Positions 1,473-21,609 of a stretch of DNA of 38,709 nucleotides are shown in pieces. Position 1 is the stretch's first letter, and every line of letters begins with the position of its first letter. The stretch spans positions 1 to 38,709 of the forward strand of contig JACIWI010000015.1 in assembly GCA_014361055.1 (NCBI GenBank), read 5' to 3'. This stretch comes from Candidatus Bipolaricaulota bacterium. Its GTDB lineage: Bacteria; Bipolaricaulota; Bipolaricaulia; Bipolaricaulales; Bipolaricaulaceae. The notes beneath the pieces are model-generated. The model was not told the origin of the DNA. It worked only from the letters and a program-made list of their open reading frames with translations, and searched no databases. The translations under genes and the position numbers were made by a program.

Positions 1473-1478
1473 TATAAT
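1473..1478 (+). promoter_or_regulatory. -10 element of the glycosyltransferase gene
   Basis: A perfect TATAAT lies 19 bases before ATG 1498. No good -35 is seen at 16-18 bases upstream. The transcript would start near 1485 and carry only about a dozen leader bases, which contain AGGGGGAGGT directly before the ATG. Confidence 0.55.
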
Positions 1479-1497
1479 CGTGACCTCAGGGGGAGGT

Positions 1498-2835: not shown

Positions 2836-2845
2836 TGCCCGGCTG

Positions 2846-2874
2846 TTGACGGCCCTGGAGCCCGGCAGTAGATT
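2846..2874 (+). promoter_or_regulatory. Promoter of nucleotidyltransferase gene, leaderless type
   Basis: TTGACG (2846-2851), 17-base spacer, TAGATT (2869-2874). The GTG start at 2884 is 9 bases past the -10, so the transcript should begin at or within a base or two of the start codon. No Shine-Dalgarno is present. Confidence 0.7.
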
Positions 2875-2883
2875 GGGAACACG

Positions 2884-3838: not shown

Positions 3839-3916
3839 AATGGGCAAACCCGGCGAAAGCCGGGGACGCAAAGTCACGGGTCTAAGGGGTGACCTAGGAT
3901 GGCCGGACTGCCGAAG
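3839..3916 (+). ncRNA. Cyclic-di-GMP-I (GEMM-I) riboswitch aptamer
   Basis: All the landmarks of the type I c-di-GMP aptamer are present in order. GGGCAAACC (3842-3850) is followed by a 6-bp stem CCCGGC/GCCGGG closed by a GAAA tetraloop (3849-3864), then GGGACGCAAAG (3863-3873), then CGGGTCTAAGG (3877-3887). The second hairpin pairs GTCA (3873-3876) with TGGC (3900-3903) and AGG (3885-3887) with CCT (3893-3895) around a GGTGA loop. P1 closes with GGCA (3843-3846) to TGCC (3909-3912), followed by GAA. The ATG at 3899 and its Shine-Dalgarno-like AAGGGG (3884-3889) lie inside the second hairpin, so ligand binding should hide the start. That would make it a translational OFF switch. The overlap is seen; the direction of control is inferred. 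Confidence 0.88.
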
Positions 3917-4809: not shown

Positions 4810-5958
4810 ATGGCCGATCTATGGCTGCGCGGCGGGGAGCTGGTGACCCCACACGGACTCGTTGGCGGAGATTGCCTGATCCGAGACGGGAAGATCGCGG
4901 CGGTTGGCCGTGTGGACGCCGAGCCTGCCAGTGCCGAGGTCCTCGATGCGGGCGGCTGCTACGTGGCCCCGGGGTTCATCGACCTCCACGTCCACGGCGG
5001 GGGCGGGGCCGAGTTCATGGACGCAACCCCGGACGCGGTAGGGACGATCGCGACCTTCCACGCCGCCCATGGGACGACCACGCTCCTCGCGGGCCTCCTC
5101 CCCGCGCCCGCGGACACGATGCGACGGGCGATGATCGCGGTGAGCGAAGCCGCCCCTTGCGGGATCGCCGGCGTGTACCTGGAGGGGCCGTTCGTCCCGC
5201 CCAGCAAGCCAGGCGCCCTCGATGGGCGCTGGTTCCTCACCCCTTCACCGGACGCGTTCCGGAACCTTGTTCACGGCCATGAACGCCTGGTCAAGGTGGT
5301 GACCCTCGCCCCCGAACTCCCGGGGGCAGACGAACTTCTGCGGGAGGTCCTGGCGGTGGGGGCGGTGCCGGCCATCGGGCATACCGCGGCCACCTACGAG
5401 GAGACCATGGCCGCCCTAAGGTGCGGGGCCCAGCACTTCACCCACCTCTGGAACGCCATGAGCGGCCTCCATCACCGTGAGCCGGGGGCCGTGGGGGCGG
5501 CCCTGGACACGGACGCCTGGGTCGAGCTCATCGTGGACGGGGTACATCTCCATCCGGCAACGGTGCGCCTCATGGCCAAGGCCAAGGGATTCGATCGGAT
5601 CTGCTTGGTCACCGACGCCATCGGCGCTGCCGGCCTTCCCGATGGGGACTATGCGCTCGCGGGGCTTCCGGTCCACGTTCACGATGGAGTCGCCCGGCTC
5701 GCCGACGGGACCCTGGCCGGAAGCACCCTCACCATGGACCGGGCGGTGCGGAACTTCATGGAGTTCACCGGGTGCTCGCTCCCCGAGGCAGTGCGCTGCG
5801 CCACCCTCAACCCGGCCCGGCTCCTCGGGATCGCCGATCGAAAGGGAAGCCTGGGGGTGGGAAAGGACGCGGACATCGTCGTTTTCGACGCGGGCCTTAC
5901 CGTCCACTACACCATCCGGGGAGGGGAGATCGTGTATGGCTGGGGTCATCGCCGTTGA
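4810..5958 (+). CDS. nagA: N-acetylglucosamine-6-phosphate deacetylase (first copy)
   Basis: 382 residues, the usual NagA length. It hydrolyses GlcNAc-6-P to glucosamine-6-P and acetate in the cytosol. Amidohydrolase landmarks are intact: metal-binding HVHG in APGFIDLHVHGGGGAEFMD (about residue 57), the Glu of YLEGPFV (about 125), GHTAA (about 195), HFTHLWNAMSGLHHREPG (about 214-232), DGVHLHP, and the catalytic Asp in LVTDAIG. The C-terminal beta-sandwich has LAGSTLTMDRAVRN and GKDADIVVFD. The start is placed by a leaderless promoter, with no Shine-Dalgarno. It is a clear paralogue of the copy at 15230 (near-identical opening MADLW, same GGGGAEFMD and GLHHREPG blocks). Immediately downstream lie decayed ends of nagB and polA rather than a working nagB, so this copy appears stranded from its former partner. 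Confidence 0.93.
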   Translation: MADLWLRGGELVTPHGLVGGDCLIRDGKIAAVGRVDAEPASAEVLDAGGCYVAPGFIDLHVHGGGGAEFMDATPDAVGTIATFHAAHGTTTLLAGLLPAPADTMRRAMIAVSEAAPCGIAGVYLEGPFVPPSKPGALDGRWFLTPSPDAFRNLVHGHERLVKVVTLAPELPGADELLREVLAVGAVPAIGHTAATYEETMAALRCGAQHFTHLWNAMSGLHHREPGAVGAALDTDAWVELIVDGVHLHPATVRLMAKAKGFDRICLVTDAIGAAGLPDGDYALAGLPVHVHDGVARLADGTLAGSTLTMDRAVRNFMEFTGCSLPEAVRCATLNPARLLGIADRKGSLGVGKDADIVVFDAGLTVHYTIRGGEIVYGWGHRR

Positions 5959-5984
5959 GCACCGCGGATTGACCTAGACAATGG

Positions 5985-6078
5985 CGGGTGTTCGCAAATC
6001 CACTTCCGTCCCGATCTTGTTCAACGAAACCGGCACCCCGTCGCCGAGCGGACCGCGGCCCAGGACCGCCAGCTCTAG
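5985..6078 (+). pseudogene. Decayed 3' end of a nagB-like gene
   Basis: Read in the frame ending at TAG 6076-6078, the end is VAERTAAQDRQL-stop, beside VADRAAARGLAG-stop in the intact nagB. A little earlier RPDLV stands where nagB has HPNLTV, preceded by CSQIHF versus ASILQL, with a few extra codons between. The TAG overlaps the stop of the polA remnant on the other strand through a CTAG, exactly as the intact nagB and polA do at 17115-17118. Similarity is short and partial; its position next to the polA remnant is the main support. Confidence 0.5.
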
Positions 6079-6183
6079 AGTTCGCCCCAGTTTTGGCCGA
6101 GCGTCATGAGTCGCGGCCGAGCCCTGGATCGGGGTGTTGATCGCGTTCCTGCGGTCCGCCGCGCCCTCTTCCACCGCTATCGC
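6075..6183 (-). pseudogene. Remnant of a polA 3' end
   Basis: Bases 6113-6160 are identical over 48 bases to 17341-17388 of the intact polA and encode ADRRNAINTPIQGSA of the polymerase domain. The last codons before the TAG (6077-6075) read LGQNWGEL, against LGKSWGDL in the intact gene. The distance between these two blocks is 188 bases shorter than in polA, a frame-breaking deletion. On the upstream side the sequence jumps from CGGTCCGCC (17380-17388 equivalent) to what follows the second CGGTCCGCC of polA (17462-17470), an 82-base loss between 9-base direct repeats. It is plainly non-functional. Confidence 0.85.
6113..6160 (+). repeat. 48-base perfect direct repeat, copy 1
   Basis: Identical and in the same orientation to 17341-17388 inside polA. 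The two copies bracket 11.2 kb carrying the whole gntR-to-nagB operon. Copy 1 sits in the polA remnant. Confidence 0.95.
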
Positions 6184-6215
6184 CAATGGCGTCCCCCCGC
6201 CCTCCGGAGCCGCGC

Positions 6216-6244
6216 TTGACACAAGGAACGTGCTGGGCTATTAT
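6216..6244 (+). promoter_or_regulatory. Strong promoter of the amino-sugar operon, leaderless type
   Basis: TTGACA (6216-6221), 17-base spacer, TATTAT (6239-6244). This is the closest match to the sigma70 consensus in the window. The first in-frame start, GTG 6251, lies 6 bases past the -10. Confidence 0.8.
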
Positions 6245-6250
6245 GCAAAC

Positions 6251-7003
6251 GTGCAGATGTATAGACAAGTTGTTGGAGAACGACTCGACCGTAGAAGCCC
6301 TATCCCTCTTTACTTTCAGCTCAAGGAGATCTTGCGCTCGTGGATCATCTCCGGGAAGTTCGACTCCGGGGCACGGTTCCCCTCGGAGAACGAGCTCCAG
6401 GCTCGTTTCGGGGTTAGCCGGATGACCCTCCGTCGTGCCCTTTCCGAGTTGGTGCACGAAGGGTTCCTCTTTCGCGAGCAAGGGCGCGGGTCATTCGTCG
6501 TCAAAACGCGGTTGCAAGAACAGCTTCGCCATCTCACCAGCTTCACCGAGGACATGCGCCTCCAGGGCCTCCCCACCACGTCCCGGATCCTCGCGTTCCA
6601 GGTGGTGACCGACGAAACGGTAGCCCACAAGCTGGACGCGCCCCCCGAGGAGGAGCTGGTCCGCTTGCAGCGCGTCCGGTTGGCTGGCGGGGAGGCGGTG
6701 GCCTTGCAGACGGCGTTCGTCCGCCACCGATTCTGCCCGGGGCTCGTGGAACGGGGGCTGGTGGAGGGCTCTCTGTACAAGACCCTCGAGGAAGTGTACG
6801 GGCTGCGCCTGGGCCGGGCCGTGCAAACGCTGGCCGCCAAACCCGCCGACCAGTACGAGGCGGAGCTCTTGGAGATCGTCCCCGGCCAGCCGGTGTTGGT
6901 CTTGGAGCGCACCACGTACCTGCAGAACGGGGCGTCTATCGAGTACGTCCGCTCCAGCTACCGGGGCGATCGGTACCGGTTCGCGGTGGAGCTGAGCCGC
7001 TAG
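6251..7003 (+). CDS. GntR-family transcriptional regulator, HutC subfamily (probable amino-sugar repressor)
   Basis: About 250 residues. The N-terminal winged helix (PIPLYFQLKEILRSWIISG, then FPSENELQARFGVSRMTLRRA, then FREQGRGSFV; about residues 17-80) is the GntR DNA-binding domain. The rest is a UTRA effector domain of the HutC/NagR type (LTSFTEDMRLQGLP, LVRLQRVRLAGGEAVALQTAFV, VLVLERTTYLQNGASIEYVRSSYRGDRYRF). In known relatives such as NagR and DasR this domain senses glucosamine-6-P or GlcNAc-6-P, and leading the amino-sugar operon supports the same role. The promoter geometry favours leaderless GTG 6251; ATG 6257 is the alternative, and the open frame back to 6134 runs through the promoter and polA remnant. 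A possible operator lies at 6257-6270, at the start of the gene itself, which would give autoregulation. Confidence 0.88.
   Translation: MQMYRQVVGERLDRRSPIPLYFQLKEILRSWIISGKFDSGARFPSENELQARFGVSRMTLRRALSELVHEGFLFREQGRGSFVVKTRLQEQLRHLTSFTEDMRLQGLPTTSRILAFQVVTDETVAHKLDAPPEEELVRLQRVRLAGGEAVALQTAFVRHRFCPGLVERGLVEGSLYKTLEEVYGLRLGRAVQTLAAKPADQYEAELLEIVPGQPVLVLERTTYLQNGASIEYVRSSYRGDRYRFAVELSR
6257..6270 (+). promoter_or_regulatory. Candidate GntR/NagR operator
   Basis: ATGTATAGACAAGT holds an imperfect palindrome (TGTCT/ATACA on the reverse strand) with the look of HutC-family operators. It sits just downstream of the inferred transcription start. No second exact copy was found at the other promoters, so support is modest. 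Confidence 0.35.
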
Positions 7004-7019
7004 TCAACACGGAGGGAAC

Positions 7020-8033
7020 ATGGAACGGCTAAAGGTAGGGGTGATCGGGGTCGGACAGATGGGGTCGCGCCATGCCCGGGTGTACTCCCAGCTGTCGAAC
7101 ACGGAACTGGTGGCGGTGGCCGACCCCCAAGCCGAACGGGCTAAGGCCATAGCCAAAGAGCTCGGCGTGCGTCGGGTGTACACGGATTACCGGGAGCTCC
7201 TGGCCTTGCCCGAGGTGCAGGCGGTGAGCATCTGTACCCCGGATGAGGCTCACCGGGAGCCGGTGGTCCACGCCCTCCAGGCGGGGAAGCACGTGCTTCT
7301 GGAGAAGCCGCTGGCCACCACGATCGAGGATGCGGAGGCCATTCTCGCCACCGTGCGCCAGGCCACGGGCAAGCTCATGGTCGCCCACCTGCTTCGGTTC
7401 GACCCGCGTTACGCGCTGGTCAAGGAGGCCATCGACCACGGAGAGCTCGGCGACATCATCTACATTATCTCCCACCGTAGCAGCCCTCACACCGAGGGGC
7501 CGCGCATCTACAAGCCGGGCACGTGCCTAACCATGCATGTGGCTGTCCATGACCTGGACATCATCAACTGGTTCATGCCCAGCGTGGCCACCCGCGTGTA
7601 CGCCGAGGCCGCGGACAAGCTGCTCGCCTCCAAGCGCATGCTGGACGCGGTCTCTGCAGTAGTGGCGTTCCGGGATGGGGCGTTCGCCAGCGTGAACTAC
7701 TGCTGGGCCCTGCCCGACCGATCCACCACCCGGCTCGACGCCCGCATGGAGGTAGTGGGGACCAAGGGGGCAGCGTACATCGGCATGTACCACGAGCAGG
7801 GACTGCTCATGGCCACTGAAGCCGGCGTCAAGACCCCGGACCTGCACCATGGGCCCACGGTGGGCGGGCAGGTACGGGGAGACCTGCGCGAGGAGATCAT
7901 GGCCTTCGTCGCCTGCGTCCTCACCGACATCCCCTCGCCCGTGCCCGTCGAGGAGGCGTTCCGTGCCGTGCAGGTGGCCCAAGCCATCCGGGACTCCCTG
8001 GCCACCAAGGCGCCAGTCAAACTGAGCCTGTGA
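7020..8033 (+). CDS. Gfo/Idh/MocA-family NAD(P)-dependent oxidoreductase
   Basis: 337 residues. The N-terminal Rossmann domain opens RLKVGVIGVGQMGSRHARVY, with the GxGxxG dinucleotide loop at about residues 10-15, followed by VAVADP. The family's EKP motif is in GKHVLLEKPLATT (about residue 98), where the Lys is catalytic. The C-terminal alpha/beta sheet domain (about 125-330) includes HVAVHDLDIINWF, where His and Asp are expected in the active site. These enzymes oxidise, reduce or epimerise sugars and inositols; the substrate here is unknown. Its place between the regulator and the transporter suggests processing of the imported sugar, or of a modified amino sugar before phosphorylation. 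A GGAGGG Shine-Dalgarno precedes the ATG, 16 bases after the gntR stop. Confidence 0.85.
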   Translation: MERLKVGVIGVGQMGSRHARVYSQLSNTELVAVADPQAERAKAIAKELGVRRVYTDYRELLALPEVQAVSICTPDEAHREPVVHALQAGKHVLLEKPLATTIEDAEAILATVRQATGKLMVAHLLRFDPRYALVKEAIDHGELGDIIYIISHRSSPHTEGPRIYKPGTCLTMHVAVHDLDIINWFMPSVATRVYAEAADKLLASKRMLDAVSAVVAFRDGAFASVNYCWALPDRSTTRLDARMEVVGTKGAAYIGMYHEQGLLMATEAGVKTPDLHHGPTVGGQVRGDLREEIMAFVACVLTDIPSPVPVEEAFRAVQVAQAIRDSLATKAPVKLSL

Positions 8034-8115
8034 GGGGGTGAGAAGAGGGCAAACACCGGGTTTCACCGCAAAAGGTCAGCACGGACGCACAGGAAGGTTG
8101 AAAGGAGGTTGAGTC

Positions 8116-9666
8116 ATGCGTAGGTTGGCGATGCTATTGGTGGTAGGGTGCCTCATCGCGGCTGGGGCAATGGCCCTGGCCGAAGAGCCGCGCTACGGCG
8201 GTGTCCTGCGGGCGGCCATGCAGACCAACCCACCCACCTTGGATCCCCACAAGACCACGACCACGGCCACCCAACAGATCGCATGTCACGTGTTCGAGCC
8301 GCTGGTCGCGTTCGACGAGAACTTCGCCCCCCAACCGGTGCTCCTGGCAAGCTGGGAGGCCGCTGAGGACAACCTCTCTTACACCCTACACCTGCGGACT
8401 GGGGTGAAGTTCCACAACGGTAAGCTGCTCACGGCCGAGGACGTCAAAGCTTCGCTGGAGAGGATCATCGCCATCTCGCCGGTCAGCGGTTACTACGACG
8501 GGGTGACCGAGATCGACGTGGTGGACGATCACACCCTCCAAGTTCGGCTCAGCAAGCCAATGAACCTGGTGGCGGCGATGACCGTCCAGGTCACTTGGCA
8601 GGGGATCATGCCCAAGGAGTTCGCCGAAAACCACGACGAGCTGCGCGTTGGCCAGCTGATCGGCACCGGCCCGTACAAGCTGGTGGAGTGGCGGCCGGAC
8701 GTGTACGTCAAGCTGGTGCGCTTCCCCGACTACGTGCCCGTGGAGGCACCGGCCTCCGGGTTCGTGGGCAAGAAGGTCGCCTACCTCGACGAGATCCTGT
8801 TCATCCCGGTCAAGGAGGTCGGGGCGCGCATCGCCGGGTTGGAGACGGGGGAGTACGACTACGCCGAGGCCCTGCCCATCGAGACCCTGAAGACGATCCA
8901 AGCCAACCGCAACCTAGTACCGCAGATCGTAAAACCCCAGTGGGCACTGGTATGGGAGCTCAACGGCAAGGAGTGGCCGACGAGCAACGCCAAGTTCCGC
9001 CAGGCGCTCCTGGCCGCGCTGGACATGGAGTTCGTGGTGTCCACCGTGGTCATGAACGACCCTAACTTCTACAGCGTGAACCCCGGGTTCATCTTCGGCC
9101 CATGGTCGGCATGGTACACCGAGGCGGGCAAGGAGCACTACAACCAGGCCAACCTGGAGCGGGCGCGTCAGCTGCTCAAGGAGGCCGGGTACAACGGCGA
9201 AGACGTGGTCCTGCTCTCCAACCGCGACTACTACTGGATGTACCGTTGCACCCTGGCTGCGGCCGCGTGCTTGGAGCGGGCCGGCATCCGGGTCAAGATC
9301 GAGTTCTCGGATTGGCCGTCCCAGATCGGCAAGGCCCTGACCCTGAAAGGCTGGAACATCAACCAGACCGGTTGGTCACCGAACGAGGACCCGGTCCGCA
9401 CCAAGGGGTCCCTGCTGTGTGGGGCCCCCTACGCCTACGGGTACTGCAACCCGAAGATGGACCAGTTGCTCGACCAGATCTCCCGGCCGGCAAGCTTTGA
9501 GGAACGGAAGGAGATCTGGGAACAAATCCAGCTTCTCTACTACGACGATGTCCCCGTGATCTTCTTCGGCTACATCTTCGGGCTTGACGCCACCCGCGCC
9601 GAGGTCCAGGACTACCGGCCATGGTACGTGGTGCCGCGGTTCTGGAACGTGTGGAAGCGGGGGTAG
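8116..9666 (+). CDS. ABC transporter substrate-binding protein, family 5 (oligopeptide/chito-oligosaccharide type)
   Basis: 516 residues. A signal peptide (MRRLAMLLVVGCLIAAGAMA, cleavage near ALAEEP) precedes a full SBP_bac_5 domain: RYGGVLRAAM, PPTLDPHKTTTTATQQI, VFEPLVAFDEN, then YTLHLRTGVKFHNGK and LTAEDVKASLERI (the family signature), and IGTGPYKLVEWRP. The C-terminal lobe has QALLAALDMEFVV and PYAYGYCNPKMDQLLDQI. Family 5 receptors bind peptides, but several bind chitobiose or other sugars, as in Vibrio. Sitting in a GlcNAc operon, an N-acetylated oligosaccharide or muropeptide ligand is the likeliest, by inference. The start is fixed by AAAGGAGGT 7 bases upstream. It is followed by a strong intercistronic hairpin and two permease genes. 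Confidence 0.9.
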   Translation: MRRLAMLLVVGCLIAAGAMALAEEPRYGGVLRAAMQTNPPTLDPHKTTTTATQQIACHVFEPLVAFDENFAPQPVLLASWEAAEDNLSYTLHLRTGVKFHNGKLLTAEDVKASLERIIAISPVSGYYDGVTEIDVVDDHTLQVRLSKPMNLVAAMTVQVTWQGIMPKEFAENHDELRVGQLIGTGPYKLVEWRPDVYVKLVRFPDYVPVEAPASGFVGKKVAYLDEILFIPVKEVGARIAGLETGEYDYAEALPIETLKTIQANRNLVPQIVKPQWALVWELNGKEWPTSNAKFRQALLAALDMEFVVSTVVMNDPNFYSVNPGFIFGPWSAWYTEAGKEHYNQANLERARQLLKEAGYNGEDVVLLSNRDYYWMYRCTLAAAACLERAGIRVKIEFSDWPSQIGKALTLKGWNINQTGWSPNEDPVRTKGSLLCGAPYAYGYCNPKMDQLLDQISRPASFEERKEIWEQIQLLYYDDVPVIFFGYIFGLDATRAEVQDYRPWYVVPRFWNVWKRG

Positions 9667-9681
9667 CCGGGGCTGTCCGGA

Positions 9682-9711
9682 CGGGGGCGGGGGCCATGTC
9701 CCCCGCCCCCG
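9682..9711 (+). other. Strong GC hairpin between binding-protein and permease genes
   Basis: A perfect 12-bp stem (9682-9693 with 9700-9711; arms of five G, C, five G and the complement) with a six-base CCATGT loop. No T-run follows, so it is unlikely to be a full terminator. Hairpins here commonly protect the upstream message and give the binding protein excess over the permeases. Confidence 0.75.
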
Positions 9712-9739
9712 CTAACCTCAAGGGTAGCCGGGGCAAGCG

Positions 9740-10684
9740 ATGATCCAGTACACGGTTCGTCGGCTATTAGCACTCGTGCCGATGTGGATCGTGGTAAGCC
9801 TGTTCACATTTTCCATCATGTACATCATCCCCGGCGACCCCCTGGTCTCCATCCTCGGCCCCAGTGCCTCCCCGGAAGCACGAGCGCGCATGATCAAGAG
9901 CATGCACCTGGACGACCCGTTCTGGGTGCGCTACTGGAAGTGGTTCAGCGGCGCGGTGCGTGGTGACCTGGGCGAGTCCATCTTCCTCGGGCGATCCGTG
10001 TTCCAGGCGATCGTGGAACGGCTCCCGGTCACCCTATACCTGGGGATCGGGGCGCTCGTGGTGGCGCTGGCGCTGGGCCTGCCGGCCGGGATCATCAGCG
10101 CCCTCAAACGCAACAGCGCCACCGACACCGCGGTCATGACCGTGGCGTTGGCCGGCTTGTCCACCCCAGAGTTCCTGCTGGGGTTGGTGCTGATCTACGT
10201 GTTCGCCGTGGGCCTCGGTTGGTTCCCGGTGGGGGGGTACGTTCCGCTCACCCAGAACCTCCTCGAAGGGCTGCGGCGACTGGTCATGCCCTGCTTCACC
10301 CTGGGGTTCATCTGGGCGGCGCTGGTGGCACGCATGACCCGGGCGACGATGCTCGACGTGCTCGACACCGACTACATCAGGACGGCCCGGGCCAAGGGGC
10401 TCGCCGAACGCCTTGTCATCTGGCGCCACGCCCTGCGCATGGCCCTGATCCCCGTGACCACGGTGATCGGGTTTGTGGTCATCCTCATCGTGTCCGGCGC
10501 GTTCATCACCGAGATCGTGTTCTCCCTGCCGGGCATGGGGAATCTGGTGGTCAACTCGGTGCTCAAGCGAGATTACCCGGTAGTTCAGGGAGCGATGCTG
10601 TTCATCACCACCGGCACGCTGCTCATCAACCTGCTGATCGACCTTCTGTACGCCTACCTCGACCCGCGGATCAAGTATGACTAG
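9740..10684 (+). CDS. ABC transporter permease, DppB/OppB type
   Basis: 314 residues, inner-membrane. The N-terminus YTVRRLLALVPMWIVVSLFTF is the conserved first helix of this family. Five further hydrophobic segments follow (near residues 95-115, 135-160, 170-185, 240-260, 285-305). The EAA-type loop that docks with the ATPase is RTARAKGLAERLVIWRHALR (about residues 213-232). GAFITEIVFSLPGMGNL is also typical. It pairs with the next gene, whose ATG 10677 overlaps its end by 8 bases, to form the translocation channel for the family-5 binding protein. The ribosome site is weak (GGGG only), consistent with lower expression than the upstream gene. Confidence 0.93.
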   Translation: MIQYTVRRLLALVPMWIVVSLFTFSIMYIIPGDPLVSILGPSASPEARARMIKSMHLDDPFWVRYWKWFSGAVRGDLGESIFLGRSVFQAIVERLPVTLYLGIGALVVALALGLPAGIISALKRNSATDTAVMTVALAGLSTPEFLLGLVLIYVFAVGLGWFPVGGYVPLTQNLLEGLRRLVMPCFTLGFIWAALVARMTRATMLDVLDTDYIRTARAKGLAERLVIWRHALRMALIPVTTVIGFVVILIVSGAFITEIVFSLPGMGNLVVNSVLKRDYPVVQGAMLFITTGTLLINLLIDLLYAYLDPRIKYD

Positions 10685-11543
10685 GAAAAACACGGACGAC
10701 ACGCGCCTCGGTCGGCTACGGGAGACCCTACGCCAGCGGATGATCGTCATCGGCGGGACAATCCTCGTCGTGATCGCTCTGGCCGCACTCATCGGGCCGT
10801 TCTTCAGCCCGTACCCGCCGAACGCGTTGACCCCGGAGTTCCTCAAGCCCCCGTCCGGGGCGCATTGGTTCGGCACCGATAGTTTCGGGCGGGATGTGTT
10901 CGTCCGCAGCCTGCTTGGGACCCGCATGTCCTTGGCGATCGGATTAGCCACCACCATCCTCAGCAGCGCTTTGGGCACCGTCATCGGGTTGGCGGCTGGA
11001 TCGTTCCGTGGACTGGACTACCTGCTGATGCGGTTAATGGACGTAATTATGGCCTTCCCGGCCTTGCTGCTGGCCATGGCCGTACTGGCGGCCATGGGGC
11101 GGAACGTGGCCAACATCCTCATCGCCCTAGGCCTGGTGTACACGCCGCGCACGGCCCGCATCGTACACGCATCAACCCTCTCCGTGCGGGAGGAGGCGTA
11201 CATCGAGGCGGCACGGGCCTTGGGAATCCCGTGGTGGCGGATCCTCTTCCGCCACGTGTTGCCCAATGTGTTCGCCCCGTTGGTGGTACAAGGAACGTTC
11301 GTGTTCGCCTACGGCGTGCTGGCCGAGGCCGGATTGAGCTTCGTCGGCGTGGGCATCCAACCACCGACGCCCAGCCTCGGCAACATCCTCGGGGATGCCC
11401 GAGCCATCATTCGGGAGGCCCCGTGGATGACGTTTTTTCCGGGGGGAATCATCTTCGCCCTGGTGATGGCCATCAATCTCATGGGCGATGGCTTCCGGGA
11501 GACACTCGATCCCCGGCTGCGCCGTATGTTCAAAGGAGGTTGA
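10677..11543 (+). CDS. ABC transporter permease, DppC/OppC type
   Basis: 288 residues. The N-terminal OppC leader has one membrane helix (IVIGGTILVVIALAALIGPFF in two parts). It is followed by the periplasmic phrase HWFGTDSFGRDVFVRSLLGTR, a hallmark of the family, and then a five-helix permease core. The EAA loop is YIEAARALGIPWWRILFRHV (about residue 175-195), and GLSFVGVGIQPPTPSLGNIL is also conserved. It is translationally coupled to the DppB-type gene. No DppD/DppF ATPase gene follows: the next gene is a SIS protein, so the ATP-hydrolysing subunits must be encoded elsewhere or shared. Confidence 0.93.
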   Translation: MTRKNTDDTRLGRLRETLRQRMIVIGGTILVVIALAALIGPFFSPYPPNALTPEFLKPPSGAHWFGTDSFGRDVFVRSLLGTRMSLAIGLATTILSSALGTVIGLAAGSFRGLDYLLMRLMDVIMAFPALLLAMAVLAAMGRNVANILIALGLVYTPRTARIVHASTLSVREEAYIEAARALGIPWWRILFRHVLPNVFAPLVVQGTFVFAYGVLAEAGLSFVGVGIQPPTPSLGNILGDARAIIREAPWMTFFPGGIIFALVMAINLMGDGFRETLDPRLRRMFKGG

Positions 11544-11544
11544 A

Positions 11545-12261
11545 GTGCTGGAAACCGTGTACTACCAAGGAATCAAGGCCCTGATCGATAGAATAGTGGA
11601 GACGCAGCGGCTGAACATTGAACTGGGTGCGCAAACGATTGCCGCCTCGCTCATCCAAGGGGGGGTGCTCCACGTGTTCGGCAGCGGGCACTCGGCGATG
11701 GTGGGCAAGGAGATCACTCAGCGTGCCGGAGGGTTGGTGCCGGTCAACCTCATCCCCGACCCCAGCGAGGGCCTGGCCGAGCGCGTGGAGGGGTACGGCA
11801 AAGTCCTGCTGGACGCCTATGCCCGCAAGTACGGCCTGAACCCGGGCGAAGTGATCATCGTCGTCTCCACCTCGGGGCGCAACCCTGTGCCCATCGAGAT
11901 CGCCATGGAAGCCAAGGCGCGAGGGCTGTTTACCATCGGCATCGTGTCCCTGGAGTACGCCCGACAGTCCTGTTCCCGGCACCGCAGCGGCAAGCGCCTG
12001 TTCGAGGTGGTAGACCTGGTGCTGGACAACTGCGTCCCCCCCGGGGACGCCATCGTGGAGATGAAGGAGCTGGGCCAGAAGTCGGGGGCTAGCTCGACCA
12101 TCGCCGGGGCCCTGCTCGTGAACATGCTCATGTTACGGGTCATCGAGGAGATCTGCCGGCGCGGCGGCACACCCCCCATCCTCAAGAGCCAGAACCTGGA
12201 GGGGGCTGATGAACACAACCAGAAGCTGCTCGCGGCCTATCGAGGCCGCCTGAACCTGTGA
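11545..12261 (+). CDS. SIS-domain sugar-phosphate-binding protein (UPF0309/COG4821-like)
   Basis: 238 residues from GTG 11545, chosen because AAAGGAGGT lies 5-6 bases upstream and overlaps the end of the dppC-type gene. The single SIS domain shows VLHVFGSGHSAMVGKE (phosphosugar loop 1, about residue 42) and IIVVSTSGRNPVPIEIA (loop 2, about residue 110), followed by GASSTIAGALLVNML. The size and the phrase SEGLAERVEGYG fit the UPF0309 group rather than MurQ etherase (about 300 residues) or the glutamine-dependent GlmS. Proteins of this group probably bind or isomerise a hexosamine phosphate, but no reaction is proven. Its position just before the amino-sugar kinase makes it a likely pathway enzyme. 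Confidence 0.82.
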   Translation: MLETVYYQGIKALIDRIVETQRLNIELGAQTIAASLIQGGVLHVFGSGHSAMVGKEITQRAGGLVPVNLIPDPSEGLAERVEGYGKVLLDAYARKYGLNPGEVIIVVSTSGRNPVPIEIAMEAKARGLFTIGIVSLEYARQSCSRHRSGKRLFEVVDLVLDNCVPPGDAIVEMKELGQKSGASSTIAGALLVNMLMLRVIEEICRRGGTPPILKSQNLEGADEHNQKLLAAYRGRLNL

Positions 12262-12270
12262 GGAGGTTCC

Positions 12271-13281
12271 GTGCGCATCGTAGGCGTGGACGGCGGGCAG
12301 TCCAGCACCCGGTGCCTGGTGGTGGATGAGCGCGGGCACGTGCTGGGGCACGGACGCGGCGGACCCTCCAACCACCTGCGCGGGGAACGGGGCACAGCTC
12401 GGTTACGCCAGGCGCTGGCCACCGTGTTCGCCGCTGCCCTTCCCGGCGAGGTGCACCCCGAGGTGGCGGGCATCTGCCTGGGCATGACCGGAGTCACCCG
12501 AGGGGAGCAGACCCAGCAGATCGTGGAGGAGATCGTCAGGGAGTACGTGTCGCCCGAGCACGTGTACGTGTGTGGGGACATGTCCATTGCCCTGGCCGGG
12601 GCAGCGGTGCTCGGCCCGGGGGTCCTCGTGTACGCGGGCACCGGGGCCAACACATACGGCGTCGATGAGAGCGGTCGCGAGGTACGCGTCGGGGGATGGG
12701 GGTACCTCATCGACGATGAGGGGGCTGGCTACGACCTTGGGCGACAGGCGCTCAAGTGGGTGTTCCGGGCCGAGGATGGGCGGGGCCGCCCCACCCTCCT
12801 CCGGGAGAAGCTCCTCGCCCACTTCGGGTGTGCTACCCTGAGTGACCTACGGTGCAAGGTGTACGAGGGTGATGGTCTGCCCCGGCCGGAGATCGCCGCC
12901 CTGGCCCGGCTGGTGGGCGAGGCTGCCGCCGAGGGAGACGCGGTGGCCCAGTCCATCCTGGCCCTGGCTGGGCAAACCCTGGCGGAGACTGCGGTCACAG
13001 CCATCCGAAAGTTGGGCAAGCAGGACCAAGCGATCACCGTCTACCCAGCGGGGGGAGTGTTCGGCGCCGGATCGTGGATCATGAAGCCGTTCACCACCGC
13101 CCTGCGCTCTGGTGCCCCCCACGCCCGGGTCGCCTCCCCTCGCTTCCCCCCAGTGGCCGGAGCGGTGTTCCTGGTCCTGCGCATGCTGGACATCAACCTG
13201 GATGAACGGTTTCTGGATCGCCTGTCCCAGGGACTCGAGGAGATCGGATGGATGAATTACAAATCGGAATCGCCAAGGTAG
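12271..13281 (+). CDS. N-acetylglucosamine kinase-like ATPase (BadF/BadG/BcrA/BcrD family)
   Basis: 336 residues. ATP-dependent phosphorylation of GlcNAc (or ManNAc) is expected. The ASKHA-fold landmarks are IVGVDGGQSSTRCLVVD (phosphate-1 loop, residue 4), VYVCGDMSIALAGA (connect/Asp, about 100), VLVYAGTGANTYGVD (phosphate-2, about 118) and GGWGYLIDDEGAGYDLGRQA (about 140). The last closely matches the GWG..x.DEG..Y.IGR block of animal and bacterial NAGK. GVFGAGSWIMKPF is the adenosine-side loop. The GTG start is fixed by AGGAGGTTCC. It supplies GlcNAc-6-P to NagA and ManNAc-6-P to NanE. Sugar preference cannot be read directly. Confidence 0.88.
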   Translation: MRIVGVDGGQSSTRCLVVDERGHVLGHGRGGPSNHLRGERGTARLRQALATVFAAALPGEVHPEVAGICLGMTGVTRGEQTQQIVEEIVREYVSPEHVYVCGDMSIALAGAAVLGPGVLVYAGTGANTYGVDESGREVRVGGWGYLIDDEGAGYDLGRQALKWVFRAEDGRGRPTLLREKLLAHFGCATLSDLRCKVYEGDGLPRPEIAALARLVGEAAAEGDAVAQSILALAGQTLAETAVTAIRKLGKQDQAITVYPAGGVFGAGSWIMKPFTTALRSGAPHARVASPRFPPVAGAVFLVLRMLDINLDERFLDRLSQGLEEIGWMNYKSESPR

Positions 13282-14558
13282 ACGTCACCCCATCCGGCGC
13301 GGTGCCCATGGCCGGGTACGTGGCCCGGGTTGGCCAGTCGCTCGGCGTCCACGATCCCCTTTGGGCGCGGTGCTTCTTGTTTCACCACGGTAGAGCACGA
13401 GGGGCGTTGGTGGTGCTAGAGGTGGTGGGCGTTCACGAACACTGGGCTGCGGAGGCGCAGCGCCGGGTCGCGGCGGCAGCTGACGTGCCCCCGGAGGGGG
13501 TGGTGGTGGCCTGCACGCACACCCACTCCGGCCCGGCCGGGCTTGACGTCCCGCCCACTCCGGACCCAACCCAGACGGCCATGGCCGAGGCCATCCTGGC
13601 CCGGGTGGAGCAGGCGGCCGCGCAGGCCGCCCAAGCCCTGGCTCCGGCCCGGGTCGGTGTCGCCACCGCTCCCGTGCCCGGGATCGCCGGCCACCGTACC
13701 CGGCCGCAGCAACCGGTGGACCAAACGTTGTGGGCGTTGGTCATCGGAGATGCGATGGGCCGGGTCCGTGCGGTCCTCGCCAACTTCCCCTGCCACTCCA
13801 CCGTACTCGGCCCAGACAACCGGCTCCTGTCCGGGGACCTATTCGGAGCCGCCGCTGCAGCCGCCGAGCGCAGGCTGGACCATGGCGCGGTGGTCGCCCT
13901 GACCGTGGGGGCAGCCGGCGATATCAGTACACGGTTCTTCCGCCAGGCCCAAGACTTCCACGAGGTGGACCGCCTCGGGGGCCTCCTCGCTACCGCCCTG
14001 GTGCGCCTCGTCCAGGCGGCCACGCCCGCCCGCGATGCCAGCGTCGCCGTGCGCTGGAGGCGGTGCTGGCTCCCATACAAGCCGGCACCAACGGCGGACG
14101 AGGCCCGGCGGATGGCGGAAGAGCTGCGGGCGGAGCTCGCCGCGCTCGTCCGGCAGGGCACGGTACCCCCGGGCGCGCTGCACATCGCCCGCACCCGGGT
14201 GGAGGGGGCGGAGCGGCTGCTGGCCATGGTGGAGGCTGGGATGCTGGCCGCCGGCGGGGCCGAGGCCGTGCTGTGCGGGCTCCGCATCGGGCCGGGGATC
14301 CTGATCGGGATCCCTGGCGAGCCGTTCAGCTCGGTGGGGCAAGCCATCCGGGACCGAGCCACTCCGCCGTTCCAGGCCACTGGGCTAGGGCTAGCCAATG
14401 GCTACCTAGGGTATTTCCCCGATGAGGATGCGGTCCGGACGGGTTGGTACGAGGCCCTGATCAGTCCGTTCGACCACCGGGCCACGATGGTGCTGACTGC
14501 GGCGGCCACGGCCTTGGTTGCGGAGATGGAGGAGGAAGACAGTGGAAGGCGTGCTTGA
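13248..14558 (+). CDS. Ceramidase-fold amidohydrolase (neutral/alkaline non-lysosomal ceramidase N-terminal domain)
   Basis: 436 residues with no signal peptide, so cytosolic. The domain order matches the catalytic half of neutral ceramidases: IGIAKVDVTP and MAGY at the start; VVVACTHTHSGPAG (zinc-binding His pair, about residue 88); FPCHSTVLGPDNRLLSGDLFG (about 183-203); IGIPGEPFSSVGQAIRD (zinc Glu region, about 345); and GLANGYLGYFP-DEDAVRTGWYE (Tyr region, about 385-410). Known secreted enzymes are 650 or more residues with a C-terminal Ig-like domain; this one stops before it. Ceramide is an improbable substrate inside an amino-sugar operon. An N-acyl amino sugar or glycopeptide amide is an inference. 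It overlaps the kinase gene by 34 bases, with GAGGAG six bases before its ATG. Confidence 0.85.
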   Translation: MDELQIGIAKVDVTPSGAVPMAGYVARVGQSLGVHDPLWARCFLFHHGRARGALVVLEVVGVHEHWAAEAQRRVAAAADVPPEGVVVACTHTHSGPAGLDVPPTPDPTQTAMAEAILARVEQAAAQAAQALAPARVGVATAPVPGIAGHRTRPQQPVDQTLWALVIGDAMGRVRAVLANFPCHSTVLGPDNRLLSGDLFGAAAAAAERRLDHGAVVALTVGAAGDISTRFFRQAQDFHEVDRLGGLLATALVRLVQAATPARDASVAVRWRRCWLPYKPAPTADEARRMAEELRAELAALVRQGTVPPGALHIARTRVEGAERLLAMVEAGMLAAGGAEAVLCGLRIGPGILIGIPGEPFSSVGQAIRDRATPPFQATGLGLANGYLGYFPDEDAVRTGWYEALISPFDHRATMVLTAAATALVAEMEEEDSGRRA

Positions 14559-15237
14559 ACGCATCCAGGGAGGCTTGATCGTGTCCTGTCAGGCCGGTGA
14601 AGGATCGCCGTTTCATGGACCCCGGTTTATGGCCGCGATGGCGGTGGCCGCCGAGCAGGGCGGGGCGGTGGGCATCCGAGCCAATGGCCCTGCAGACGTA
14701 CGCGCCATCCGTCGGGCTACATCTCTCCCCATCATCGGCATCTACAAACGGCGCGACCTCAGCCCAGATGTGTACATCACCCCGGACGTGGCAAGCGCGC
14801 GGGCCGTGATCCGCGCTGGAGCGGACATCGTGGCCGTGGACGGCACGGCGCGCCCGCGGCCTGGGGGCGTCACTTTGGCCGAGCTCGTGCGCGCCATCAA
14901 GGGCACTTATCACGTGCTGGTCATGGCCGATATCTCCACCGTGGAGGAGGCATCGGCCGCGGTCGCCGCCGGCGCGGACATCGTCGCCACCACCCTCTCC
15001 GGGTACACCCCGGCCACGGCTCACAGGCGCGCCGGCCCTGACCTGGACCTGGTCCGGGAGCTGGTGGCCCGGGTCCAAGTACCGGTGATCGCTGAAGGCC
15101 GTTTCTGGACGCCCGAAGAGGTGTGCCAAGCCATCAGCCTCGGCGCCCACGCCGTGGTGGTGGGCACGGCCATCACCAACCCAGAGGCCATCACCGCCCG
15201 GTTCGTGCGCGCCCTGCAGGAGGCAACACATGGCTGA
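14542..15237 (+). CDS. nanE: N-acylglucosamine-6-phosphate 2-epimerase
   Basis: 231 residues, against about 229 for E. coli NanE. It interconverts ManNAc-6-P and GlcNAc-6-P. It is a TIM barrel with the family phrases GGLIVSCQA (residue 10), IIGIYKRRDLSPDVYITP (catalytic Lys in YKR, about 67), DGTARPRPGG, VLVMADIST, IVATTLSGYTP, VPVIAEGRFWTPEEV (catalytic Glu in AEG, about 180) and GAHAVVVGTAITNP. Start GTG 14542 is chosen for the GGAGGA five bases upstream; the end of the ceramidase-fold gene overlaps it. Its presence implies that ManNAc or sialic-acid-derived sugars also enter the pathway, although no NanA lyase is in the window. Confidence 0.93.
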   Translation: MEGVLERIQGGLIVSCQAGEGSPFHGPRFMAAMAVAAEQGGAVGIRANGPADVRAIRRATSLPIIGIYKRRDLSPDVYITPDVASARAVIRAGADIVAVDGTARPRPGGVTLAELVRAIKGTYHVLVMADISTVEEASAAVAAGADIVATTLSGYTPATAHRRAGPDLDLVRELVARVQVPVIAEGRFWTPEEVCQAISLGAHAVVVGTAITNPEAITARFVRALQEATHG

Positions 15238-16390
15238 CCTGTGGGTGCGGGGCGCCCGCCTGCTAGCCCCAATGGAGGAGGGCGATTGCCTGGTGCGCGA
15301 AGGGCGGATCGCCGCGCTGGGCCGGGTACTCCCCTCCGCCGTCCCTCACGGCTGCCCGGTGCTGGATGCGGCCGGGCGGTACCTCGCGCCGGGTTTCATC
15401 GACATGCACGTCCACGGAGGAGGCGGGGCCGAGTTCATGGACGCGGAGCCAGAGGCAATAAGGACAATCGCAGCCTTCCACGCCGCCCACGGCACCACGA
15501 CCCTGTTTGCGGCAATCGTCCCGGCCCCAGTGGATCGTATGCGCCGGGCCATGGCCGCGGTGGCCGAGGCGGCGGAGCCCGGGATCGCCGGCCTGTACTT
15601 GGAGGGCCCGTTCGTCTCTCCCGCCAAAAAGGGCGCATTCAACCCGCGTTGGCTGCGCCCCCCCTCGGCAGGAGCCCTCCGCAAGCTGGTCGAGGGATAC
15701 CAGGACCTGGTGAAGGTGGTGGCCTTCGCCCCGGAGCGACCGGGCGCGGACCAGCTGCTCGCGGACATCCTGGCCATCGGAGCGGTGCCGGCCGTGGGCC
15801 ACACCGCCGCCAATGAGCAGACCATGGACGCCGTTGCCCACGGGGTGCGCCACTTCACCCACCTCGGCAACGCGATGAGCGGCCTCCACCACCGTGAGCC
15901 GGGGGTGGTCGGGGCTGCCTTGTCCTCATCCCACACCACGCTCGAGGTGATCGCGGACGGGGTGCACATCCACCCGGCGGTGATCCGGCTGCTCGTGGAG
16001 TTCCTAGCCGCCCGCGGCCAATTGGACCGGCTGTGCCTCATCACGGATGCCACCAGCGCCACCGGCATGCCGGACGGTATCTACCAACTGGGGGACCAGG
16101 AGATCATCGCCCGTGCCGGCGAGGTGCGCCTGCGCGATGGCACGTTGGCTGGCTCGGTGCTGACCATGGAACGGGCGGTGCAGAACACAGCAGCGTTCGC
16201 TGGTTTGTCGCCGGCGGAGGCGGTGCGCCTGGCCACGGCCAATCCGGCCCGGACGCTGGGATTGGCCAGCCGGAAGGGGGAGCTGACGCTGGGCGCGGAC
16301 GGGGACCTCGTCCTCCTGGACGATGACCTCGCGGTGTGGGCCACCGTGCGCGCGGGCGAGGTGGTGTTCTCCCGGGAGGGGAACCGGTGA
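15230..16390 (+). CDS. nagA: N-acetylglucosamine-6-phosphate deacetylase (second copy)
   Basis: 386 residues, paralogue of the copy at 4810. It carries HVHGGGGAEFMD, LYLEGPFVSPAKKG, GHTAA, HFTHL, GLHHREPG, DGVHIHP and LITDATSATGMPDG, so all metal and substrate residues are present. One visible difference is HLGNAM where the first copy and most relatives have an aromatic residue (HLWNAM, HLFNAM). This may change acyl or sugar specificity. ATG 15230 overlaps nanE by 8 bases, with AGGAGG six bases upstream, and the end overlaps nagB by GTGA. It is thus the operon's working deacetylase, in contrast to the separately promoted first copy. Confidence 0.92.
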   Translation: MADLWVRGARLLAPMEEGDCLVREGRIAALGRVLPSAVPHGCPVLDAAGRYLAPGFIDMHVHGGGGAEFMDAEPEAIRTIAAFHAAHGTTTLFAAIVPAPVDRMRRAMAAVAEAAEPGIAGLYLEGPFVSPAKKGAFNPRWLRPPSAGALRKLVEGYQDLVKVVAFAPERPGADQLLADILAIGAVPAVGHTAANEQTMDAVAHGVRHFTHLGNAMSGLHHREPGVVGAALSSSHTTLEVIADGVHIHPAVIRLLVEFLAARGQLDRLCLITDATSATGMPDGIYQLGDQEIIARAGEVRLRDGTLAGSVLTMERAVQNTAAFAGLSPAEAVRLATANPARTLGLASRKGELTLGADGDLVLLDDDLAVWATVRAGEVVFSREGNR

Positions 16391-17118
16391 ACCTTCTCAT
16401 CACTGCAGACTACCGCGAGCTGAGCCAGGCCGCCGGCCAGCTGGTGGCACAGGCGCTCCTGCACGACCCGGATGCCGTCCTTGCCCTTCCCACCGGGGAA
16501 ACCCCAAAGGGAATGTACGAAGCCCTGATCCGCCTGTATCAGGAGGGCCTGGTGGACTTCTCCCGGGCCACGGCGTTCAACCTGGACGAGTACCTGGACA
16601 TCCCGCCCGACCATCCCCAAAGCTTTTCTGCCTACATGCGCCGGTACCTTTGGGATCACGTTAACCTAGCGAAGGACAAGGTGCACATCCCGGCGAGTCT
16701 CCCTGAAGATCCGGAAGCTGAGTGCATCCGCTATGAGGAGCTGATTCGAAAAAGTGGTGGGATTAACCTTGCCGTCCTTGGGATCGGCGAAAATGGCCAC
16801 ATCGCGTTCAACGAACCGGGCACCCTTTGGGAGACCCCGACCCATGTGGCCGTCCTCTCCCAGGAGACACGGGAGCGGGAAGCCCAAGCGTTCGGAAGGC
16901 TCGAACACGTGCCGACGCACGCGATCACAATGGGGATCAAGACGATCATGCGCGCCCGCCGGGTGCTCCTCCTTGCAAGCGGCGAAGAAAAGGCGGGGAT
17001 CCTCGCCCGTGCGCTCTCCGGCCCGATCACCATTGACGTGCCGGCGTCGATCCTCCAACTCCATCCCAATCTGACAGTGGTCGCCGACCGGGCCGCCGCC
17101 CGCGGCCTTGCCGGCTAG
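16387..17118 (+). CDS. nagB: Glucosamine-6-phosphate deaminase
   Basis: 243 residues, close to Bacillus NagB length. It converts glucosamine-6-P to fructose-6-P and ammonia. Motifs: ALPTGETPKGMYEALI (phosphate loop, about 30), FNLDEYLDIPPDHPQSF (catalytic Asp, about 63), INLAVLGIGENGHIAFNEPG (about 124-143, with the catalytic Glu/His and acid), and ITMGIKTIMRARRVLLLASGEEK (about 178-200). The start GTG 16387 overlaps the nagA stop. The end is convergent with polA: both TAG stops share the CTAG at 17115-17118. A decayed copy of this same junction lies at 5985-6183. Parts of the gene near 16735-16800 look less G+C rich than the neighbours. Confidence 0.94.
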   Translation: MNLLITADYRELSQAAGQLVAQALLHDPDAVLALPTGETPKGMYEALIRLYQEGLVDFSRATAFNLDEYLDIPPDHPQSFSAYMRRYLWDHVNLAKDKVHIPASLPEDPEAECIRYEELIRKSGGINLAVLGIGENGHIAFNEPGTLWETPTHVAVLSQETREREAQAFGRLEHVPTHAITMGIKTIMRARRVLLLASGEEKAGILARALSGPITIDVPASILQLHPNLTVVADRAAARGLAG

Positions 17119-19817
17119 AGGTCGCCCCAGCTCTTGCCGAGCTTTACGTCCACCTTAAGGGGGGCCTTGAGCTCCCACACCCCCTCCATGAGCCGCTTCA
17201 CCCGCTCCGCAGCAGCCGCCGCCTCGGCTTCGTCCACCTCGAACACGAGCTCGTCGTGGATCTGGAGGATCATCTCCGCCACAAGGTCCCCCTCCCGCCA
17301 CGCCTCGTGCAGGCGAAGCATGGCGAGCTTCATGAGATCAGCGGCCGAGCCCTGGATCGGGGTGTTGATCGCGTTCCTGCGGTCCGCCCCGGCCCCCCGC
17401 CGGTCGGCCGCGGCCAGCCCGGGCAGGGGGCGCCGACGGCCGAGAAGGGTCCGCGCATACCCGGTCCGCCGCGCCTCCTCCACCAACGCCTCCACGAACG
17501 TGGCCACCGTGGGGTAGGTGGCGAAAAACCGGTCGATGAAGAACTTCGCGTCGGATTGGGAGATCCCAAGGTCCCGGGCCAGGCCGTACGGGCTGATCCC
17601 GTAGATGATGCCGAAGTTCACGCGCTTGGCCACGGTGCGCATCCGCCCGTCCACCTGCCCCGGCGGCACGCCAAAGATCGCGGACGCGGTGCGCTGGTGA
17701 AGGTCCTGCCCCCGCCGGAACGCCTCGATGAGCCCTTCGTCCCCGGAGAGGTGGGCGAGGATCCGGAGCTCGATCTGGGAGTAGTCCGCCCCGAGGAGCA
17801 CCCGCCCCGGCGGGGCCACGAACGCCCGGCGGATGTCCACCCCCACCTCGTGCCGGGACGGGATGCTCTGGAGGTTGGGATCGGACGAGGAGAGGCGCCC
17901 GGTGGCGGTCCCGGTCTGGTTGAACGAGGTATGGACCCGGCCGGTCTTGGGGTGCACGTAGGCCGGAAGCTTCTCCACATACGTGTTCCTGAGCTTCTCG
18001 AGCTCCCGGTACGCCACGAGCTTGCCGGGGAACTCGTGGTAGAGGGCGAGCTCCCGCAGCACCAACGCATCGGTGGAAGGGCCAGTCTTGGTCCGCTCCA
18101 GCACCGGCAGCTTCAGCCGCCCGTAGAGGACCTCCCGCACCTGGGGGGTGGAGTTGGGGTTGAACGTACAGCCGGCCAGGGCGTAGAGCTCCCCCCGGAG
18201 CTGGTCGAGGAGGACCTCCAGTTCTTTCCCCTGCTCCCGCAGCACGTCCACGTCCAGGAGCACCCCGCGGCGTTCCATCCACCGCAGGACGTCGATCAGC
18301 GGAACCTCTATTTCCTCGAAAAGCGGGAGCAGCTCAGCCTCTCGCAGCCGTTGCGTGAGCCGGGGCCGCAGCCGACACACCACCTCCGCGTCCTCCCCCG
18401 AATAGCGGGCCGCCCGCTCCACCGGGACCTCGCGGATCTCCTTCTCTCCCCCTTCGGCGAGGAGCTCTTGGTACGTCTGCACCTTCTCCCCGAGCTCATC
18501 CCGCACCACCACATCGAGGCCGTGGGCCGGGGCGTCGGGGCGGAGGAGCCAGTGGGCGATCATGGCATCGAACGCAACCCCACGGGCCTCGATCCCGTAG
18601 CCCGCGAGCACCTGGAGGTCGTACTTCAGGTTCTGCCCGATGATCCGGGTCTTCTCCCCCTCGAGGAGGGGGCGCAACCCCGCGAGGACCTTCGGGAGGG
18701 GGAGCTGGGGCGGCGCCCCTGGGTACCGATGCCCCACCGGGATGTAGTAGGCCGCATACGGCTCCACCGCTACCGCGATCCCCACGATCTCCGCCGCGAG
18801 GGGATCGGTGCTCGTCGTCTCCAGGTCCAGGGCGAACTCCTCGGCCCCGGCCAACCGGTCAAGCAGGGCAGCGAACGCGTCCTCGCTGAGCACCACCTCG
18901 TAGCGCGGCGCCGGACCCGCCTGCAGCTTGAGCTCGGCCAGGATGGACCGAAACTCGAGGCCCTCGAGCACCTCCACCAGCCGTTCCGGATCGATGGGCC
19001 GGGGCTGGCAGTCGGCCACGGCAAGGCCCAACGGGACCTCCTTCAGGCGCACCAGCTCCCGCGACAGCAATGCCTCCTCGCGGTGTTCGGTAAGGGCGTG
19101 GGCGATCCTGCGATTGCGGACCCGGGTCGCGGCGGCGAGCACTTCCTCCAGCGACCCGTGCTCGCGCAGGAGCTCGACCGCGGTCTTCTCGCCGACCCCC
19201 TTGACCCCGGGGACGTTGTCCACCGCATCCCCCTCCAGGGCAAGGAGGTCCACGATGCGCTCCGGCGGGACGCCGAACCGCTCCTCCACCCCACGCCGGT
19301 CGAGGAACACCAAACGGTCGCTGGGCTTACGTCCTGGTCGGAGCAGGGCCACCCGATCGCTCACGAGCTGGGCCATGTCCTTGTCCCCGGTGAGGTGGAG
19401 GACGGGGATCCCCTCCCGCTCGGCGGCCCAGGACAGGGTGGCCATGATGTCGTCGGCCTCGTACCCAGGGCACTCCAGGTAGGGGATCCCGAACCCATCG
19501 AGGAGCTCCCGCACTCGCGGCAGCTGCCTGGCCAACGCCTCCGGCATCGGCTTCCGCGTCGCCTTGTAGTCGGCGTAGGTCGCGTGGCGCACGGTCTTCC
19601 CCTCCGCGTCGAACGCCACCGCCACATACCGGGACGGGTACTGGCGGAGGGCCATGAGGAGGGTGCGAACGAACCCGTACAGGGCGTTAACCGGTTCCCC
19701 GTTGGACGTGGCGAGGTCGGGGATCGCGTAGAAAGAGCGGAACAGGGCGGAATGACCATCCACAAGGAGGAGCCGCTCCGCTACCTCGTGGATCCCCAGG
19801 GCCTGGTAGACGTTCAT
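17115..19817 (-). CDS. polA: DNA polymerase I
   Basis: 900 residues. Three domains in order. The 5'-3' flap nuclease (about 1-290) has LLLVDGHSALFRSFYAI, YEADDIMATLS and GDAVDNVPGVKGVGEKTA. The 3'-5' proofreading domain (about 310-490) is apparently active, with the D-x-E of FALDLETTSTDP, the Asp of NLKYDLQVL and the YSGEDA motif all retained, unlike Taq polymerase. The polymerase domain (about 520-900) has GTATGRLSSSDPNLQSIP, motif A DYSQIELRILAHLSGDEG, motif B RTVAKRVNFGIIYG and motif C QIHDELVFEV. Start ATG 19817 overlaps the ruvC stop (ATGA). An open frame reaches back to 20339 but only through ruvC. It is last in the folP-DUF177-ruvC-polA operon. A 3' remnant of a second copy exists at 6075-6183. 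Confidence 0.97.
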   Translation of the reverse strand: MNVYQALGIHEVAERLLLVDGHSALFRSFYAIPDLATSNGEPVNALYGFVRTLLMALRQYPSRYVAVAFDAEGKTVRHATYADYKATRKPMPEALARQLPRVRELLDGFGIPYLECPGYEADDIMATLSWAAEREGIPVLHLTGDKDMAQLVSDRVALLRPGRKPSDRLVFLDRRGVEERFGVPPERIVDLLALEGDAVDNVPGVKGVGEKTAVELLREHGSLEEVLAAATRVRNRRIAHALTEHREEALLSRELVRLKEVPLGLAVADCQPRPIDPERLVEVLEGLEFRSILAELKLQAGPAPRYEVVLSEDAFAALLDRLAGAEEFALDLETTSTDPLAAEIVGIAVAVEPYAAYYIPVGHRYPGAPPQLPLPKVLAGLRPLLEGEKTRIIGQNLKYDLQVLAGYGIEARGVAFDAMIAHWLLRPDAPAHGLDVVVRDELGEKVQTYQELLAEGGEKEIREVPVERAARYSGEDAEVVCRLRPRLTQRLREAELLPLFEEIEVPLIDVLRWMERRGVLLDVDVLREQGKELEVLLDQLRGELYALAGCTFNPNSTPQVREVLYGRLKLPVLERTKTGPSTDALVLRELALYHEFPGKLVAYRELEKLRNTYVEKLPAYVHPKTGRVHTSFNQTGTATGRLSSSDPNLQSIPSRHEVGVDIRRAFVAPPGRVLLGADYSQIELRILAHLSGDEGLIEAFRRGQDLHQRTASAIFGVPPGQVDGRMRTVAKRVNFGIIYGISPYGLARDLGISQSDAKFFIDRFFATYPTVATFVEALVEEARRTGYARTLLGRRRPLPGLAAADRRGAGADRRNAINTPIQGSAADLMKLAMLRLHEAWREGDLVAEMILQIHDELVFEVDEAEAAAAAERVKRLMEGVWELKAPLKVDVKLGKSWGDL
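17341..17388 (+). repeat. 48-base perfect direct repeat, copy 2
   Basis: Within the intact polA (codes for part of the polymerase domain between motifs B and C). Identical to 6113-6160. Confidence 0.95.
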
Positions 19818-21587: not shown

Positions 21588-21594
21588 CGGGGCA

Positions 21595-21600: not shown

Positions 21601-21609
21601 GCACGGGAT

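Follow-up and report, generated by a model that had tools for sequence, protein, structure and literature searches.

A decayed nagB-polA junction behind nagA as the probable scar of a second amino-sugar operon in a Bipolaricaulota genome

Introduction

The displacement of resident genes by incoming modules has been described for the T6SS of Vibrio cholerae, where displaced effector modules leave 3' ends that are shifted back, and one-sided homology has been proposed (PMC5361080). Homology-facilitated illegitimate recombination is known from experiments on naturally competent bacteria and on conjugation in E. coli (PMC3240628). A search of the literature on amino-sugar metabolism in the phylum Bipolaricaulota returned nothing relevant.

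The window considered here is the whole stretch of 38,709 nucleotides from a Candidatus Bipolaricaulota bacterium (assembly GCA_014361055.1, contig JACIWI010000015.1). Its genome possesses one nagB, one intact polA and, behind the first of two nagA genes (nagA1), a stretch of about 160 bases with the decayed ends of nagB and polA, termed the ghost. The ghost is probably the genomic scar of a nagA1-nagB1/polA locus that was entered by a second amino-sugar operon from a related bacterium.

Structure and decay of the ghost junction

Local alignment of positions 5959-6260 to the rest of the window yielded matches that are collinear and on the same strand. The ghost consists of four pieces, in the order nagB FNExGTP motif, nagB end with CTAG and polA end, polA core motif, and a short outermost polA piece (Table 1). 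Positions 6040-6102, which cover the nagB end, the CTAG and the polA end, match 17080-17142 at 50 of 65 positions (E 4e-7). The core piece gave the strongest match, 66/71 between 6098-6166 and 17324-17394 (E 2e-23), and was also reported independently by a repeat finder. When 5985-6183 was aligned as a chain to the intact nagB-polA pair, the score was 131.6; dinucleotide shuffling gave a mean of 21.2 and a highest value of 30.5 over 300 replicates. Taken alone, the ghost's nagB part (5985-6075) scored 39.5, a value that none of 1000 shuffles reached (maximum 30). The ghost is thus similar to both nagB and polA, collinearly and on the correct strands.

The original prediction had described a degraded polA 3' end on the minus strand and, facing it, a probable nagB 3' end. 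Both are readable from the sequence. The identical block of 48 bases is a real match to intact polA, and the similarity extends well past it. The predicted span of 5985-6183 was close, with recognisable sequence running from 6019 to about 6176 and at most to 6186; the nagB FNEPGT piece was absent from that description. A search of 5959-6018 for N-terminal remains of nagB found the FNExGTP piece alone, and 5959-6018 had no blastn match in any relative's locus.

Table 1. Features of the nagA1-polA region (window positions)
Feature	Position	Strand	Evidence
Ghost nagB internal piece, FNExGTP motif	6019..6038	+	18/20 vs 16806-16825; nagB DNA profile (nhmmer) E 6e-4
Ghost nagB 3' end, VAERTAAQDRQL-stop	6040..6078	+	Aligned with intact nagB end from 17080
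Ghost polA 3' end, LGQNWGEL-stop	6075..6104	-	Aligned with 17115-17144; family-like end
Ghost polA core piece, ADRRNAINTPIQGSA	6098..6161	-	Matches 17324-17394; 48 consecutive identical bases
Ghost polA outermost recognisable piece	6152..6176	-	22/24 vs 17462-17484
nagA1, intact	4810..5958	+	Ortholog of the single nagA beside nagB-polA in G001; 84% aa, blastn 91% over 4936-5932
Intact nagB	16384..17118	+	76% aa to G001; diverged from G001 nagB except about the last 35 bases
Intact polA	17115..19817	-	Convergent with nagB, stops share CTAG; 96% aa to G001; Pfam DNA_pol_A
Incoming module	6254..17080	+	Pfam; not orthologous to the G001 operon
Inferred ghost/operon junction	~6187-6200		polA match over by 6186; similarity to G001 gntR upstream region from ~6198
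gntR promoter, TTGACA-17-TATTAT	6216..6244	+	Scan; similar boxes before gntR in G001, G019 and G025

The reading frames of both genes are destroyed by large gaps, by nagB pieces lying in differing frames and by two 1-base deletions, which break the polA frame directly beside the core motif. The nagB motif and the nagB end are joined by a loss of about 250 bases. In polA, the core and the end now meet at CGAGC, a repeat whose two copies in the intact gene (17138-17142 and 17324-17328) bracket the roughly 180 bases lost. CGGTCCGCC, present at two places in intact polA (~17380 and 17462), is common to the outermost polA piece and the core piece, which overlap there. This overlap fits a second deletion between short repeats, a possible reading for which older divergence is the alternative. 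At two aligned positions of the core, the ghost polA also departs from a state shared by every other genome; these changes and the two frameshifts are decay after function was lost. In its anatomy, the ghost is a pseudogene of the typical shrinking kind.

Gene order in the sister species and the incoming operon

The sole other genome of the genus (g1) that was found, G001, shares about 95% DNA identity with the window in the flanks. A single G001 contig aligns to window positions 1-3778 (94%) and 16444-35976 (95%) in the same order and orientation. Between the matched flanks, this sister species carries its own gntR operon, which ends in the nagA1 ortholog and is followed directly by nagB and the convergent polA, so that an intact version of the junction stands at the corresponding place. 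When polA was searched across the family, G001 showed no ghost. In the nagA tree, nagA1 and the G001 nagA are sisters (support 96), and nagA2 groups with the nagA genes of genus g5 (92). The order in G001 indicates that nagA1-nagB-polA existed in the genus and that the window's nagA1 has lost it. Elsewhere, nagA-nagB pairs are common, and nagB-polA convergence also occurs in G010.

The incoming operon encodes, by Pfam, a GntR/UTRA regulator, a Gfo/Idh/MocA dehydrogenase, an oligopeptide-type ABC transporter, a SIS protein, a BadF-type kinase, a ceramidase-like protein, NanE and NagA2, followed by NagB. The gntR operon of G001 has different transporter and kinase genes. The left edge of the operon is sharp (Table 1). 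The promoter in front of gntR came with the operon, since it is conserved upstream of gntR homologs. No donor was found among 40 genomes of the family or 100 of the phylum, where the top hits of the searched operon proteins show 33-76% amino acid identity. Outside the window's own genome, these best matches were 75% for gntR, 50% for the solute-binding protein and about 61% for nagA2, and the ceramidase-like gene has one relative (33%) among the 100 genomes of the phylum. The lack of a donor among these genomes counts against arrival from elsewhere but is compatible with such a mechanism, and the G+C content of the operon is not distinctive, which also counts against arrival. An older nagA-nagB-polA order split by the arrival or duplication of an 11-kb operon had been predicted, and the undisturbed order in G001 bears this out. 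Of the two routes, arrival is favoured over duplication because nagA2 groups with the nagA of another genus and the operon is not that of G001.

At the far edge of the operon, identity to G001 is about 65-80% in the last third of nagB and becomes near-identity from ~17085 into polA. This jump, from about 70% to near 100%, is a recombination break at the nagB 3' end, and it places a homologous anchor, the polA end, at one end of the operon. No integrase or mobility gene was present among the Pfam hits of the operon proteins. An attachment site of an integrative element was considered and rejected, given the lack of a mobility gene among these hits and the position of the identical block, which is not at the edge of polA but about 200 bases into the gene.

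Ancestry of the ghost polA end

The last polA codons read LGQNWGEL in the ghost, LGKSWGDL in the intact window gene and SGKSWGEL in the intact G001 gene. Other genera mostly have N in place of the S and E in place of the D. The intact polA genes of the window and G001 thus have a derived KS in common, and the ghost is family-like instead. Over the last 24 bases, the ghost differs from the window's intact polA at four bases, and in each case other genera also show the ghost's state. The tree of polA ends places the ghost within the stem of the genus (90) and outside the pair formed by the window's genome and G001 (97, ultrafast bootstrap), on a long branch; 85 sites were compared, and this position depends on a handful of them. 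The family-like end and this position indicate an ancestor that was a diverged, once functional polA. As had been predicted, the ghost polA end is diverged, and to judge from these bases it probably derived from such a gene and is probably not a fresh copy.

Origin of the scar

The entry of a second operon into the locus, which we regard as the probable origin of the ghost, would have proceeded as follows. In the ancestor, nagA1-nagB1 would have been convergent with polA, the order kept in G001. DNA of a related bacterium, arranged as gntR-transporter-...-nagA2-nagB2, would then have recombined into the locus. On one side, the linear DNA would have joined homologously, with the conserved polA end as the anchor; on the other, an illegitimate join would have formed within or next to a polA 3' fragment, immediately upstream of the incoming gntR promoter. 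The result would be a complete polA beside the new nagB2, with the old nagB1 and the final 370 bases or more of a polA copy stranded behind nagA1. Since nagB2 and the complete polA do the work, the stranded copy would have been free to decay through frameshifts and deletions, some of them between short repeats. We infer the one-sided homologous entry, the direction of these events and which copy had been the donor's.

The main rival would leave nearly the same scar. In it, a single crossover in the nagB 3' end or the polA end would have brought in a circular intermediate, or a tandem duplication would have followed uptake. The left product would then be the old nagB1 with the donor polA 3' end, and the right product the donor nagB2 with the resident polA. 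The switch to near-identity with G001 at ~17085 sits where that crossover is expected, and a ghost polA end foreign to the window's genome and G001 fits a donor polA on the left. This route requires a circle or a duplicated intermediate, however, and the Pfam-searched operon proteins include no integrase or mobility gene. It is credible but unlikely.

In a second rival, the intact nagB/polA junction would have been duplicated later and its copy, now the ghost, placed in the gap between nagA1 and gntR. The 48 bases identical to intact polA would suit such a copy, as would the higher score of the ghost nagB against the window nagB than against the G001 nagB. It is nonetheless very improbable, because the ghost polA end carries family-like states that are missing from one or both intact polA genes. 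In a simple simulation, with the states chosen post hoc, four random changes produced these states in 0 of 200000 trials. Moreover, nagA1 adjoins the ghost exactly as the G001 nagA adjoins nagB-polA.

Other genera and the wider locus

In the window, an NDP gene (2884-3780) precedes the amino-sugar island. In genus g12 (G018, G012, G033, G027 and G021), NDP and polA adjoin directly with their stops overlapping and have no island between them; the NDP/polA loci L110, L112 and L114, of G012, G018 and G033, respectively, were compared with window positions 3775-3780 and 17113-17118. The g12 arrangement would probably represent the empty site of the whole amino-sugar island. If so, the whole island would have been inserted between NDP and polA, with the ghost as the mark of the second of at least two arrivals. 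The CTAG that the ghost stops were predicted to share, as the intact pair does at 17115-17118, is present but not diagnostic. Such sharing is common at these convergent ends and is also found at the NDP/polA junctions of G018 and G033, and it was dropped as a sign of descent.

In G005 (C1:1149856-1152183) and G034 (C9:13926-16434), nagA faces polA without nagB across a gap of about 300-480 bases. A search of this gap in both genomes for nagB remnants gave nothing above noise, and nagB was not found in the g5 genomes searched. Depending on the genus, NDP, nagA or nagB lies directly beside polA, and this counts toward a further, tentative reading. In this family of Bipolaricaulota, amino-sugar cassettes may dock repeatedly at the polA 3' end, in exchanges that would need no integrase, be anchored in polA and leave scars of this sort.

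Within the G001 nagA, some 65 bases (L103:16400-16470) are 95% identical to the window's nagA2 (compare 15360-15440) and 85% to nagA1. Outside this patch the gene is mostly nagA1-like, which is read as recombination between nagA types. The patch implies that the locus recombined more than once, a point against the account of entry given above. The ends of nagA1 (4810-4930 and 5890-5958) share 54-62% with the G001 nagA and the centre mostly 90-98%, a mosaic pattern. Between NDP and nagA1, positions 3899-4720 hold an ORF of 273 amino acids with no Pfam match and no G001 counterpart at the locus. On the minus strand between NDP and gntR, G001 has a glcD-like FAD oxidase gene with etfA and etfB (L103:5082-8529); the corresponding window position is occupied by the 273-aa ORF and nagA1.

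The nagA2-like patch implies that nagA2-type DNA met this lineage, and it could be taken to mean that the window, with its two operons, retains the older order, the ghost and the second operon having been lost in G001. This account has very little probability, and less than that of a later duplicate, since G001 has its own gntR operon with different genes and the ghost presupposes an earlier intact nagB-polA junction behind nagA1. Chance similarity or an assembly chimera has next to no probability: the assembly is a draft of 150 contigs, but the chain score is far over the shuffles, and a chimera would not match both flanks to one G001 contig in order and orientation.

Comparison with known systems

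With the entry of a second operon as the probable explanation, a scar of about 160 bases orders two events largely from one genome, the old nagA-nagB-polA first and the second operon later. It also explains why there are two nagA genes here but one nagB, whose product (16384-17118) is predicted to act for both deacetylases. In addition, it suggests that the conserved end of a housekeeping gene may anchor the exchange of metabolic operons in a candidate phylum whose gene exchange is hard to study directly.

The event belongs to a known kind, of which the scar is a well-preserved case. As in the displacement of T6SS effector-immunity modules in V. cholerae, the new module lies beside a conserved anchor, and the old genes and a 3' end persist as remnants (PMC5361080). 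In contrast to that system, a metabolic amino-sugar operon is involved here, the remnant is housekeeping polA together with nagB, and one displacement is recorded. As in homology-facilitated illegitimate recombination, one end would be homologous and the other illegitimate (PMC3240628). The experimental proof given there differs from the present case, in which the mechanism is deduced from sequence and the donor is not among the sampled genomes. Finally, the ghost resembles the ordinary bacterial pseudogenes that shrink by deletion (PMC5447742) in its frameshifts and in its deletions, some of them between short direct repeats. Unlike those pseudogenes, it spans the junction of two genes and preserves their order.
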